Shown here one piece after another: positions 10,906 to 14,932 of a stretch of DNA of 64,000 nt. Origin of the DNA: Emcibacter sp. (GTDB lineage Bacteria; Pseudomonadota; Alphaproteobacteria; Sphingomonadales; Emcibacteraceae). The position numbers were made by a program, and so were the translations under genes. Each line of letters opens with the position of its first letter. Position 1 is the first letter of the stretch. Where the stretch lies: positions 248,001 through 312,000 of the forward strand of contig JAJFIQ010000026.1 in assembly GCA_021774785.1 (NCBI GenBank). The letters run 5' to 3'. A model generated the notes under the pieces. That model ran no database searches, had not been told where the DNA came from, and saw only the letters and a program-made list of their open reading frames with translations.

Positions 10906-12501
10906 ATGTATTCTGACCAATTTGCTGCGGACAATATGCCTGATAAGGATGATCTGCCGGAATTTATCCATGACCTGCCGGAACTTGACTATCCCAAAAA
11001 CCTGAATGCAGCCGTAGAATTGCTGGACAAGAATATCGCCGCCGGATATGGCAACAACGTCGCCATCCTTACCCCCGATGAAAGCTGGACCTATCGCGAT
11101 GTATATGAAAGATCAAATCAGATCGCTCATATTCTGGTGGCGGATATGGGCCTGAAAAGTGGCAATAGGGTTTTGTTGCGCTCGGCCAATAATCCCATGA
11201 TGGTGGCCTGCTGGTTTGCGGTTCTGAAAGCCGGTGGCATTGCCGTATCTACCATGCCCCTGCTTCGGACGCAGGATTTGGTTCCGGTGATCAATAAGGC
11301 AGAAGTAGCCTTTGCTCTATGTGATGAACGGTTGGCAGATGAGTTGGTTAAGGCAGAACCCACAGCCCCTGTTCTGAAAAATATCTTGTATTTCAGCGAC
11401 TTGAAAAACCGTATGGCGGATAAATCAGCTGAATTTAACCCCGTGGAAACGGCGGCTACTGATGTGGCCCTCATTGCCTTTACCAGCGGCACGACCGGCA
11501 ACCCCAAAGGATGTATGCAATATCATCGGGACATCATGTCCATGTGTCACACAGTGGGGAATCGCCTGCTGGGGATTACCCAAGACGATGTGATCATTGG
11601 CAGTCCACCCCTAGCCTTTAGCTATGGTCTCGGGTCTTTAATTGGTTTTCCTTTTCTTGCCGGGGCCACCACGGTACTTTTAGAAATGGGCAGCCCCGAT
11701 GTTTATCTCGCCGCCATCGAACGTTTCCATGCTACATGGAGTTTCACCGCGCCAACCGCATACCGCGCCATGCTGGCCGATGTGGCACAGCATGACCTGT
11801 CCAGCCTGAAAGCCTGCGTTTCTGCGGGTGAACATTTACCCCTGCCCACCTTTCACGCTTGGGAAAAGGCCACGGGAATTCGGATGATCGACGGTATCGG
11901 AGCCACGGAAATGATCCATATTTTCATTTCAGCCACAGGCGACAACATCCGGCCCGGTGCCACGGGAAAACCTATCACGGGCTATCAGGCCTGCATATTG
12001 GATGATAATGACAAGCCCCTGCCCGCCGGAAAAGTTGGGCGGCTTGCTGTCAAAGGCCCGACCGGCTGCAAATATCTGGCTGACGATCGCCAGTCAACTT
12101 ACGTGCGCAACGGCTGGAATGTGACCGGTGACGCCTATCGTATGGATGAGGACGGGTATTTCTGGTTTCAGGCCCGCGACGACGACATGATCATATCATC
12201 GGGCTATAATATCGGTGGGCCGGAAGTGGAAGAAGCCTTGATGGATCATCCGGCAGTTGGCGAATGTGCCGTTATCGCATCACCGGATGAGGCCAGAGGT
12301 CAGATCGTCAAAGCCTTCATTGTTCTGGCACCGGATTACAAGGGCGATGATACCCTGATATCAGAGCTGAAAAGCCATGTTAAAAACACCATCGCGCCCT
12401 ATAAATACCCCCGCGCCATTGAATTTATCGACAGTCTACCTAAAACCGAAACCGGAAAAATTCAGCGGTTTGTGCTACGGCAGCAAGAAACTAAACCATA
12501 A
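10906..12501 (+). CDS. abmG: 2-aminobenzoate-CoA ligase (benzoate-CoA ligase family)
   Basis: A 531-residue AMP-forming aryl-CoA ligase, the entry step that activates the aromatic acid with ATP and CoA. The P-loop AFTSGTTGNPKG lies near 190. DGIGATEMIHIF is the adenylation motif, and VTGDAYRMDEDGYFWFQARDDDM carries the conserved Asp. The C-terminal catalytic lysine is in KTETGKIQR (about 517). The N-terminal LPELDYPKNLNAAVELLD is typical of the aminobenzoate/benzoate ligase branch. It is the last gene of the operon, and its final 11 bp overlap the convergent exonuclease gene. The choice of 2-aminobenzoate rests on the fused hydroxylase in the same operon; salicylate or benzoate remain possible. 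Confidence 0.85.
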   Translation: MYSDQFAADNMPDKDDLPEFIHDLPELDYPKNLNAAVELLDKNIAAGYGNNVAILTPDESWTYRDVYERSNQIAHILVADMGLKSGNRVLLRSANNPMMVACWFAVLKAGGIAVSTMPLLRTQDLVPVINKAEVAFALCDERLADELVKAEPTAPVLKNILYFSDLKNRMADKSAEFNPVETAATDVALIAFTSGTTGNPKGCMQYHRDIMSMCHTVGNRLLGITQDDVIIGSPPLAFSYGLGSLIGFPFLAGATTVLLEMGSPDVYLAAIERFHATWSFTAPTAYRAMLADVAQHDLSSLKACVSAGEHLPLPTFHAWEKATGIRMIDGIGATEMIHIFISATGDNIRPGATGKPITGYQACILDDNDKPLPAGKVGRLAVKGPTGCKYLADDRQSTYVRNGWNVTGDAYRMDEDGYFWFQARDDDMIISSGYNIGGPEVEEALMDHPAVGECAVIASPDEARGQIVKAFIVLAPDYKGDDTLISELKSHVKNTIAPYKYPRAIEFIDSLPKTETGKIQRFVLRQQETKP

Positions 12502-13288
12502 TTTCCACCATCACCGGCGCATGATCCGATGGTTTCACCCAGCCACGCGCGGCTTCCAATACTTCCATGCTTTTCATAACGGGCTTTAGGGACGGGCTGG
12601 TCCAGATATGGTCTAGCCTACGGCCTTTATCGGCGGCTTTCCAGCCTTTCGCCCGGTAAGACCACCAGCTATAGAGTCTTTCCGGTTCCGGCACAAAGTG
12701 GCGCATCACATCAAACCAGTCATGGGCTTCCATCAGGGTCATCATCTTTTCACATTCCAGCGGCGTGTGGCTGATCACTTTGAGCAGTTTCTTATGGGAC
12801 CAGACATCGCTTTCTAGAGGTGCTATATTCAAATCCCCCACCAGAATATATTTGCCGTCCTTGGGTAAATCATGTGACCAGCTTGTCATTTCATCCAGAA
12901 AATCCAGCTTATGGGCAAATTTGTCATTGATCGCCGCGTCCGGTTCTTCGCCGCCAGCGGGCACATAGAAATTATGTAAATTTATGCCGCCGGGAAGGGT
13001 TGCTTCAATATGGCGGGCATCACCCTTGCCGCACCAGTCCCTTCGCGCAGTATTTTCCAACGGAATGCGGGACATAATGGCGACCCCGTTATAGGATTTC
13101 TGTCCGGCAATAGCGTTATGGACAAAGCCCCGTTCGATGAAATATTTTTCCGGAAACATATGGTCCTGAACCTTGGTTTCCTGAAAACAGATCACATCGG
13201 GGCTGTAATCTTCCATCAATTGTCCAACTTGATCGATACGCGCTCGCACGGAATTTATATTCCATGTAACCAGTTTTATTTTTGTCAT
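12491..13288 (-). CDS. xthA: Exodeoxyribonuclease III
   Basis: A 265-residue metal-dependent AP endonuclease / 3'-5' exonuclease of the ExoIII family, acting in base excision repair. Visible active-site motifs are NINSVRARI, the metal-binding Glu in CFQETKVQD, the GDLNIAP loop, RRLDHIW, and the terminal SDHAPVMVE Asp-His pair. Length is normal. It lies 3' of the lolA-ftsK block on the same strand, an order I know from many alphaproteobacteria, although the small-RNA locus and an unknown gene intervene. Its ribosome site is weak. The 3' end overlaps the convergent ligase gene by 11 bp. Confidence 0.93.
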   Translation of the reverse strand: MTKIKLVTWNINSVRARIDQVGQLMEDYSPDVICFQETKVQDHMFPEKYFIERGFVHNAIAGQKSYNGVAIMSRIPLENTARRDWCGKGDARHIEATLPGGINLHNFYVPAGGEEPDAAINDKFAHKLDFLDEMTSWSHDLPKDGKYILVGDLNIAPLESDVWSHKKLLKVISHTPLECEKMMTLMEAHDWFDVMRHFVPEPERLYSWWSYRAKGWKAADKGRRLDHIWTSPSLKPVMKSMEVLEAARGWVKPSDHAPVMVEIMV

Positions 13289-13311: not shown

Positions 13312-13896
13312 CTAAAAGATATTAAACGTATTACCCATAACACCCAACGGCCACCATCCGGTTTCAAACATCTGATATTTCAACTGAAAAGGATGATCTT
13401 CATCTACCCCGGCGGCAATAACCAAAGCGGCCTGATAGCAGGCCTGTACACCCTCGCCAATGGCGGCTTTCATCAATTCCTCATCATGCACACCCCATCG
13501 GTCCGCAGCCGAAATTACCCCTTCCCCCACATATTCAGACGCCACACTGGTCACATTGGCCAGCACCATTTCCAAAAGTTGGGGATCTATATTGTCCGTG
13601 ACCTCCACTGAGAGGGCGGCCATAAGCTGCTGTTCCACTTCCCAGAACGGGCTATTGAAATCATTGGTTTCCAGCGAATAGGCTGCCTCCTGCCAGTCTT
13701 CTACCTCAGCGGGCGTGGCCTCGGGAAAGCCAAGCGCATCCAGATAGATACGAGCTTTGTCCAGCACCTCCCGCTCCAAAGGCTCCCCCACATAGCGGAA
13801 CCAGTCCGTACGCGGGATCAGCTTGGTAAAGCGCGATACAAGAACAAGGGTCGGATATTCTTCAAGCGCATCAATTTCTATTTCATCTTCATCCAT
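13312..13896 (-). CDS. Unknown acidic protein
   Basis: A 194-residue protein that I do not recognise. It is strongly acidic, beginning with MDEDEIEIDALEEYP, has no cysteines in obvious pairs apart from one central Cys, no signal peptide and no membrane segment. Helical segments rich in Glu and Ala dominate. It starts about 40 bp downstream of the small-RNA terminator and ends 23 bp before xthA on the same strand, so the two may be co-transcribed. No domain can be assigned and no role inferred. Confidence 0.6.
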   Translation of the reverse strand: MDEDEIEIDALEEYPTLVLVSRFTKLIPRTDWFRYVGEPLEREVLDKARIYLDALGFPEATPAEVEDWQEAAYSLETNDFNSPFWEVEQQLMAALSVEVTDNIDPQLLEMVLANVTSVASEYVGEGVISAADRWGVHDEELMKAAIGEGVQACYQAALVIAAGVDEDHPFQLKYQMFETGWWPLGVMGNTFNIF

Positions 13897-13935
13897 GCTT
13901 AAGAGTTATAAATGATTAAGACGCCCGCTCAAGAT

Positions 13936-13968
13936 AAAAAAATGCCCGGTCAGTATTCTGACCGGGCA
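13936..13968 (-). terminator. Rho-independent terminator
   Basis: Perfect 11-bp stem (TGCCCGGTCAG / CTGACCGGGCA) with a 4-nt loop, followed on the minus strand by seven T. It is a strong intrinsic terminator ending the small-RNA transcript and/or read-through from lolA. Confidence 0.9.
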
Positions 13969-14085
13969 GTTCTGTGCAATCAGCACTAGCAAGAGGAAGG
14001 GGGAGGGAAAACCTCTTGCAGGATAACACGTCACAAAAGCGATCTGAGGAAGGAATGATCGCACATCGGCTCGTTTCGTGCTATA
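13936..14085 (-). ncRNA. Candidate CCUCC-loop small RNA (cuckoo/CcsR type)
   Basis: In the 328-bp gap between lolA and the acidic protein gene, the minus strand encodes three hairpins in a row. The first has stem GCGATC/GATCGC (14039-14062) with loop ATTCCTTCCTCA. The second has stem GCAAGAGG/CCTCTTGC (13989-14019) with loop TTTTCCCTCCCCCTT. The third is the strong terminator. Both leading loops expose pyrimidine runs complementary to Shine-Dalgarno sequence. Paired anti-SD hairpins plus a terminator is the architecture of the CCUCC-motif (cuckoo) small RNAs described in Alphaproteobacteria. A heat-shock-like promoter lies at 14092-14119. The predicted length is about 150 nt; the 5' end is estimated from the promoter. 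Confidence 0.7.
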
Positions 14086-14091
14086 TATTAG

Positions 14092-14119
14092 ATATAGGTA
14101 ATGATTTTATTATTTCAAG
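14092..14119 (-). promoter_or_regulatory. RpoH-like promoter of the small RNA
   Basis: On the minus strand CTTGAA (14114-14119) is followed after 15 nt by CCTATAT (14092-14098). This resembles the heat-shock sigma factor pattern CTTGAA ... CCxxAT of proteobacteria. It can also be read as a sigma-70 promoter, TTGAAA with TATATC. It sits just upstream of the first hairpin. Confidence 0.55.
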
Positions 14120-14224: not shown

Positions 14225-14932
14225 TTATTTTCTGCGTGGCCCACGCTTACTGGGGCGTGGATCGCGGAAAGTGAAATGTTTTTTATCAATTTCCACATTA
14301 TATTCAGGATTGATCAGAGCCACACGCGTGGTATAGCCCTGCGCATCTACACTCTCCCATGCGCGAAGCTCCATGGTGCTTTCCTCGAATATCAGAATGA
14401 TATAACCATATTCCTGACGTTTCGGATCAATCACCGGCACTTTTATCAGGCCGGCAAAGCGGATAATGTCGGGGACTTCGATTTTTGAATCGAATTTGAT
14501 TTCCTTATCCACCAGAATACCAAGCGGGGTTTTTTTAATAGGCCAGCGGCTAACCTGCTTTACTTCATAATCAACGAATGTCAACAAGCTGCCGTTACTA
14601 ACCACCAGAAATGGCGCATCCTTGCCAAAATCAAACCGGAGCTTACCGGGACGCTCCAGATAAAGCACGCCTTCTGCCACCGAACCATCCGGTGCCCGCT
14701 GGATAAAGTCTGCTTTCAGGGTTTTTATGGCATTAAGGCTCAAGGCTATCTGGTCGAGCGTTTCATCTTTTTTGGCCTTTTCCCCGGCTTCTATTCTGGT
14801 CTGTTTATCGGCCAAAGATTCTTCCACTGGAAGCTCAGCCTGTGGTTCTATCATTGTCGGGTTATCCGCCGCTGATACGCCCCCACTCCATAGAATAGCT
14901 GTCACTAAAAGGCTGGTAAGTATTTTTTTCAT
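14225..14932 (-). CDS. lolA: Outer-membrane lipoprotein carrier LolA
   Basis: A 235-residue periplasmic protein with an N-terminal signal peptide (MKKILTSLLVTAILWSGGVSAA, cleavage near 22). The LolA core starts about residue 60, with LNAIKTLKADFIQ, EGVLYLERPGKLRFDF and SNGSLLTFVDYEVKQVSRWPI. LolA receives lipoproteins from LolCDE and delivers them to LolB or the outer membrane. A short acidic, lysine-rich insert (about 25-58) separates signal peptide and core, and the C-terminus is basic (RPSKRGPRRK). It follows ftsK on the same strand by 79 bp, a conserved alphaproteobacterial arrangement. Confidence 0.9.
   Translation of the reverse strand: MKKILTSLLVTAILWSGGVSAADNPTMIEPQAELPVEESLADKQTRIEAGEKAKKDETLDQIALSLNAIKTLKADFIQRAPDGSVAEGVLYLERPGKLRFDFGKDAPFLVVSNGSLLTFVDYEVKQVSRWPIKKTPLGILVDKEIKFDSKIEVPDIIRFAGLIKVPVIDPKRQEYGYIILIFEESTMELRAWESVDAQGYTTRVALINPEYNVEIDKKHFTFRDPRPSKRGPRRK

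Follow-up and report, generated by a model that had tools for sequence, protein, structure and literature searches.

A C-rich-loop small RNA element in the gap beside lolA of Emcibacter

A four-hairpin element on the minus strand beside lolA

The window, a stretch of 64,000 nucleotides from the genome of the marine bacterium Emcibacter, contains a C-rich-loop small RNA element on its minus strand, in the gap beside lolA (Table 1). The earlier note had placed this element in a lolA-xthA gap; the position is correct, but the gap reads lolA-orf194-xthA, with a gene for a 194-aa protein between the RNA and xthA. The 5' end of the predicted RNA was set from the -10 box and the 3' end from the U-tract. 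The fold of 181 nt has an energy of -61.4 kcal/mol, as compared with a mean of -40.9 kcal/mol for shuffled sequences (z = -5.5; 0 of 200 shuffles as low), and comprises, in the order 5' to 3', stem-loop 1, stem-loop 2, a small stem-loop 3 and a terminator. The two hairpins that the earlier note had described from the minus strand, with loops AUUCCUUCCUCA and UUUUCCCUCCCCCUU, are present where it had put them, and its 11-bp terminator with seven U is borne out as well (stem 13968-13943, 8 of 11 pairs G-C, followed by TTTTTTT in the DNA); the third hairpin, GUGC-N5-GCAC, had been overlooked.

Table 1. Features of the element and its surroundings (positions in the window)
Feature	Position	Strand	Description
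xthA (exodeoxyribonuclease III)	12491..13288	-	downstream neighbour; PF03372
orf194	13312..13896	-	conserved 194-aa protein; always downstream of the RNA in Emcibacteraceae; 54-91% identity (13 homologues)
promoter-like site of the downstream gene	13905..13932	-	TTGAGC (13932-13927), 16 nt, TATAAC (13910-13905)
predicted small RNA transcript	13936..14085	-	~150 nt; alignment of 15 homologues, covariation, no consistent ORF
stem-loop 4, intrinsic terminator	13936..13968	-	11 bp, then UUUUUUU; 98% of cells paired (32 homologues)
stem-loop 3, GUGC-UGAUU-GCAC	13974..13986	-	97.6% paired (15 genomes); double changes in wider set
stem-loop 2	13989..14019	-	8-bp stem GCAAGAGG/CCUCUUGC; -11 kcal/mol
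loop 2, UUUUCCCUCCCCCUU	13997..14011	-	putative second C-rich seed; UUUCCCUCCCCCUU near-invariant in genus
stem-loop 1	14023..14084	-	outer helix 14084-14077 with 14030-14023; inner helix 14061-14057 with 14044-14040
loop 1, AUUCCUUCCUCA	14045..14056	-	putative first anti-SD-like seed; core CUUCCUC in nearly all Emcibacteraceae
predicted promoter, RpoH/sigma-32 type	14092..14119	-	-35 CTTGAA (14119-14114), 15-nt spacer, -10 CCTATAT (14098-14092)
lolA	14225..14932	-	upstream neighbour; PF03548, E 6.7e-26

Within Emcibacteraceae the loops are retained and the stems covary

A plain DNA search found the RNA in 16 of 60 relatives, each time adjoining orf194. Within the genus sample the RNA is present in 13 of 16 genomes, the window's own included, and the three genomes that lack it are only 62-67% complete. 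Of 32 Emcibacteraceae genomes sampled, a covariance model built from 15 sequences detected it in 26. The earlier note had set against its own reading a pattern in which the loops are unconserved and the stems drift; the opposite is seen, the loops being near-invariant across the 13 Emcibacter genomes and the stems drifting with compensation.

The covariation was assessed in three alignments. Among 15 homologues, both-side changes occur in 17 of 35 pairs, as compared with 9.0 in shuffles, and pairing falls from 93% to 34-44% when the partner is slid by 1-3 columns. Across 27 genomes, compensatory changes are found in 28 of 35 pairs. With 32 homologues, in an alignment that was fitted to the structure and hence is biased towards it, double changes are found in 29 of 35 pairs, and 94% of cells are paired, as compared with 33-45% when slid. 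In all three alignments, and in each measure, 0 of 500 shuffles reached the observed value.

The signal extends to the individual helices. Among 15 genomes, the outer helix of stem-loop 1 has double changes in 6 of 8 modelled pairs, and 4 of the 8 pairs of stem-loop 2 have changed in a compensatory way. Loop 2 is predicted to be unpaired with probability 1.0 at each position of the ensemble. The 5-bp stem that closes loop 1 is thermodynamically weak, and the single-sequence fold pairs some loop-1 positions in an alternative manner; nevertheless, this inner helix shows both-side changes in 4 of 5 pairs and is 100% paired in the 15 genomes, and the covariation thus supports the predicted loop-1 stem despite its weak thermodynamics. 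In three homologues (L008, L011 and L012) a 12-nt deletion takes out the 3' arm of stem 2 along with one arm of stem-loop 3, the 5' one; the two arms left over, 5' from stem 2 and 3' from stem-loop 3, form a stem there, and a C-rich loop 2 is still displayed. One Emcibacteraceae genus has the loops CCUUCCUCU and UUUUUUCCUUUUUCCCCUC.

The element recurs in one gap across Alphaproteobacteria

The sequence-and-structure covariance models carry no information on gene position. Such models place the RNA in the gap ftsK-lolA-[RNA]-(orf194)-xthA in roughly ten alphaproteobacterial groups at the level of the family. In family f4, the first model matched one genome between lolA and xthA with no orf194 (L051), and rebuilt models found the RNA downstream of ftsK-lolA in two others (L077 and L078), whose next gene was not recognised as either xthA or orf194. 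In families f130, f46, f23, f98, f123 and f11, rebuilt models also placed the RNA next to lolA, with xthA or orf194 on its other side; in f145 and f70 it was found in gaps chosen for their neighbouring lolA and xthA. A chance match in the lolA-xthA gap is expected at the order of 1e-4 per genome. That position-blind models repeatedly reach one gap of ~0.5 kb in multi-megabase genomes is strong evidence for the family. Outside Emcibacteraceae the letters of the loops differ and their C-richness is kept: by family, loop 1 reads UUCCCCCCU, ACCCCUCCC or UUGCCCCCCCC, C-rich and G-poor throughout.

Weak model matches outside the lolA-xthA gap (for example L052-L054 and L083-L087) were left out of these counts, with the exception of L096; those at L052-L054 lie mainly in the terminator. 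L096, from family f12, is a clear homologue with loops UGCCCCCCCGCU and AUCCCCUCC, alongside which no lolA, orf194 or xthA was detected. L096 is read as a relocated copy.

A probable transcription unit of its own

The product of orf194, which many Alphaproteobacteria retain at this place between the RNA and xthA, matches nothing in Pfam or NCBIfam and nothing convincingly in the PDB, and the syntenic xthA homologue at L075 is an exodeoxyribonuclease III (TIGR00195/TIGR00633).

According to one alternative, the RNA acts in cis on orf194-xthA, as a 5' leader or attenuator whose loops, by binding something, decide on read-through of the terminator. In every Emcibacteraceae genome examined, orf194-xthA does follow the RNA on the same strand; in the window the RNA ends 40 nt from the start codon, and its layout of three hairpins plus a terminator is leader-like. 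However, a separate promoter-like site, TTGAGC-N16-TATAAC, follows the terminator, and the alignment has a site of similar type 3' of the terminator in several Emcibacter genomes; this site would put the start of orf194 transcription almost at the start codon, and its presence argues against an attenuator leader. Furthermore, the covariation shows no alternative antiterminator pairing, the downstream gene varies by family (xthA directly at L051, a gene not identified as xthA or orf194 at L077 and L078), the copy at L096 lies outside the lolA-xthA gap, and C-rich loops are present in each family. We consider a leader unlikely.

A product of the lolA 3'UTR was rejected, because five Emcibacter homologues have no lolA directly upstream (none in range for L005, L007, L009 and L010; 1.2 kb away for L002). 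The promoter of the RNA travels with the RNA while the upstream gene varies. A small protein was rejected because a search for ORFs within the RNA found none that is consistent among homologues, and at most 37 codons. Titration of CsrA/RsmA by the opposite strand, whose loops would be AGGAAGGA and GGGGGAGGG, was rejected because both the promoter and the U-tract are on the minus strand. Taken together, the promoter that moves with the RNA, the second promoter site and the lack of a consistent ORF speak more for a small RNA gene than for a fragment of a 3'UTR, for a leader or for a small protein.

A promoter of the heat-shock type

The predicted promoter of the RNA matches at 13 of 13 positions the RpoH1 consensus of an organism other than the host, Sinorhizobium meliloti, CTTGAA-N15-16-CCTATAT (PMC4843759). 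In most homologues from Emcibacteraceae and from family f4 the spacer is 15 nt and 11-13 of the 13 positions match; the promoter at L013 scores no better than shuffled sequence. Within the 3.5-Mb genome, CTTGAA-N14-16-CCYATAT occurs at only 4 sites. Related sequences lie upstream of heat-shock genes of the same genome, namely CTTGAA-N15-TCCATAT at htpG and CTTGAA-N15-ATTATCT at an HSP20 gene, and near matches on contig C19 lie upstream of htpG, glutaredoxin, secA and rimP genes. The promoter of the RNA also resembles a lax sigma-70 promoter, and in the distant families f98, f123 and f130 the promoter is not RpoH-like. We conclude, from promoter sequence, that control of the RNA by RpoH is likely in the Emcibacter lineage. 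'Stress-induced', the earlier note's term for the RNAs with which it compared the element, is plausible for the element on the same ground, the CcsR RNAs likewise standing behind an RpoHI/RpoHII promoter.

The groES gene of the same genome (L094) told nothing as a control for heat-shock promoters, since a CIRCE-like inverted repeat, TTAGCACTC...GAGTGCTAA, lies upstream of it. Possibly, then, two heat-shock control systems operate in one genome, a CIRCE-like system (groES) and a CTTGAA-type system (htpG, HSP20). Elsewhere in this genome, CTTGAA-N16-CCCATAT (L090; C6:4187-4215, minus strand) occurs just upstream of a gene for a small LuxR-like DNA-binding protein, which on this motif is a possible further RpoH target.

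RusT is probably a closer relative than the cuckoo/CcsR RNAs

The earlier note had read the element as a small RNA of the cuckoo type. The comparative evidence agrees with a free-standing small RNA that exposes two C-rich, anti-SD-like loops and ends in a terminator; it does not support membership of the cuckoo type. Cuckoo RNAs are defined by the motif CCUCCUCCC in hairpin loops (PMC10746234), and this motif is absent from 32 of 32 aligned homologues. The Emcibacter RNA is present in one copy in the genome, whereas cuckoo RNAs are present in several, often in tandem; no DUF1127 gene (PF06568), an association that is frequent for cuckoo RNAs and not strictly defining, was matched in the whole genome; and the RNA has its own conserved locus and an extra third hairpin.

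Resemblances to the cuckoo/CcsR/alpha-r14 group (CcsR1-4 of Rhodobacter, NfeR1 of Sinorhizobium) are nonetheless present. Both have anti-SD-like C-rich motifs in the loops of two hairpins, a terminator and a stress promoter, RpoHI/RpoHII-dependent for the CcsR RNAs and, on the Emcibacter side, the sequence CTTGAA-N15-CCTATAT; the loops of family f46, CCCCUCCC and CCCCCUCCU, also speak for a true cuckoo/CcsR RNA with diverged loops. Against such an origin stand, besides the differences above, the Rfam results: no family matched at its gathering score, and permissive thresholds gave only chance matches, mostly to the terminator. The alpha-r families were absent among Rfam matches up to E = 10, a result to be read with the caveat that Rfam 15 may hold no cuckoo/CcsR model. 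We regard a diverged cuckoo/CcsR RNA as very improbable.

The best relative is instead RusT (CCNA_R0199, between CCNA_03820 and CCNA_03821) of Caulobacter crescentus, an Hfq-bound RNA of 118 nt from the lolA-xth gap (PMC11005374; mBio 2024). RusT has four stem-loops, of which stem-loop 2 holds the seed and stem-loop 3 is contacted by Hfq. It responds to NtrX and iron and is not reported as a heat-shock RNA; it represses membrane transporters in an Hfq-dependent manner, their mRNAs being direct targets; homologues have been reported only in Caulobacteraceae (PMC11005374). The Emcibacter RNA likewise occupies a single conserved locus in the lolA-xth gap, with orf194 inserted, and likewise has four stem-loops of which the last is a terminator, the structure being supported by covariation in Emcibacter and by probing in RusT. 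The near-invariant, unpaired loop 2, putatively a seed in Emcibacter, corresponds to the seed loop of RusT stem-loop 2, and the small stem-loop just before the terminator is, by order, the counterpart of the Hfq site in RusT stem-loop 3. The two RNAs differ in length (~150 nt vs. 118 nt) and in promoter (RpoH-type vs. NtrX-repressed). A form from the lolA-xthA gap of family f70 (L172), with loop CCCCCUCCC, looks intermediate towards RusT. By locus and architecture, the Emcibacter RNA and its homologues are probably the wider RusT family, and we infer homology with RusT as opposed to mere co-location.

Predicted pairing with ribosome-binding sites

Since the two exposed pyrimidine loops are complementary to Shine-Dalgarno-like sequence, ribosome-binding sites are their implied pairing partners. 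We predicted targets on contig C19 (608 genes), scoring pairing beyond the 2% tail of coding DNA. Loop 1 exceeds this threshold at 40 of 608 translation starts (6.6%; ~12 expected), 3.3-fold over coding DNA, and loop 2 at 3.8% of starts, 1.9-fold. The complementary, G-rich control loops do so at 1.0-1.8% of starts. Reversed loops are also enriched (2.5-4.4% of starts, 1.3-2.2-fold), and part of the effect at start sites is therefore generic for C-rich sequence. The enrichment at ribosome-binding sites is thus modest and largely generic for C-rich sequence. The best loop-1 site lies at a gene for a DUF2165 membrane protein (C19:410736-411224), which is a candidate lead and is not claimed as a target.

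We propose the following mode of action. A free-standing, trans-acting RNA of ~150 nt would be made from its own RpoH-type promoter and end at its own terminator; its two hairpins would present G-poor, C/U-rich loops in unpaired form; these seeds would base-pair with target mRNAs at G/A-rich ribosome-binding sites and so prevent their translation, as cuckoo-type RNAs block ribosome-binding sites (PMC10746234); and Hfq would probably act near stem-loop 3 and the U-tail. The family to which the RNA would belong is an ancient one of Alphaproteobacteria with a fixed place in the lolA-xthA gap, and Caulobacter RusT is most likely its characterised representative. The loops could alternatively act as a sponge that titrates a protein or another RNA, for example by sequestering a G/A-rich RNA, in place of regulating many mRNAs. 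Two separate C-rich loops would suit such a role, which has a precedent in CrfA-SisA of Caulobacter, where C-rich alpha-r8 small RNAs pair with a G/A-rich small-RNA loop; RusT, however, represses mRNAs directly, and we hold a sponge to be quite improbable. As a whole, a trans-acting small RNA with an RpoH promoter and two C-rich seeds that block ribosome-binding sites, in an ancient lolA-xthA family that includes RusT, is the best explanation, and one in which we have fair confidence. Sequence comparison shows the structure, the conserved loops, the synteny, the type of promoter and that the RNA is non-coding; that it is transcribed, depends on RpoH, uses Hfq, has such targets and shares ancestry with RusT is inferred.

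A probably old family with changing loops

We conclude that the element is real and conserved, and that it is most likely a stress-induced, trans-acting small RNA. Small RNAs of this kind are known already, and in RusT one member has probably been studied. What appears to be new is how far the family reaches, how its loops have been rewritten from lineage to lineage, and its promoter of heat-shock type. Rfam holds no matching family, and the RNA family was previously uncatalogued.

Anciently conserved trans-acting small RNAs are rare, most being confined to one family or genus. We lean slightly towards the view that a class-wide alphaproteobacterial RNA took its place next to lolA earlier than the separation of the major orders, its seed loops (CUUCCUC, UUCCCCCCU, ACCCCUCCC, UUGCCCCCCCC) rewritten in each lineage with C-richness kept, and its control rewired (Caulobacter using NtrX and iron, Emcibacteraceae and a sister family a heat-shock sigma factor). 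A structurally conserved C-rich-loop RNA at the RusT locus in about ten families provides a covariance model for annotation, its breadth makes the ancestral role of the RusT-locus RNA directly testable, and the family offers a system for the study of how a small RNA keeps its place and shape while seeds and promoter change.

The genome's own suhB RNA and its look-alikes

The alpha-r8/suhB/mmgR RNAs (RF00519; SisA-D in Caulobacter) resemble the Emcibacter RNA in having a terminator and a C-rich single-stranded core, UUUCCUCCCU. Membership of this family was rejected: the RNA scores below the RF00519 gathering score, and the genome has a clear suhB RNA of its own elsewhere (C16:110019-110094, 64.9 bits). 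Three further suhB/mmgR look-alikes lie below threshold in the same genome, at C11:957307-957377, C16:149243-149317 and C11:485112-485191, and are possibly siblings in the manner of SisA-D of Caulobacter.
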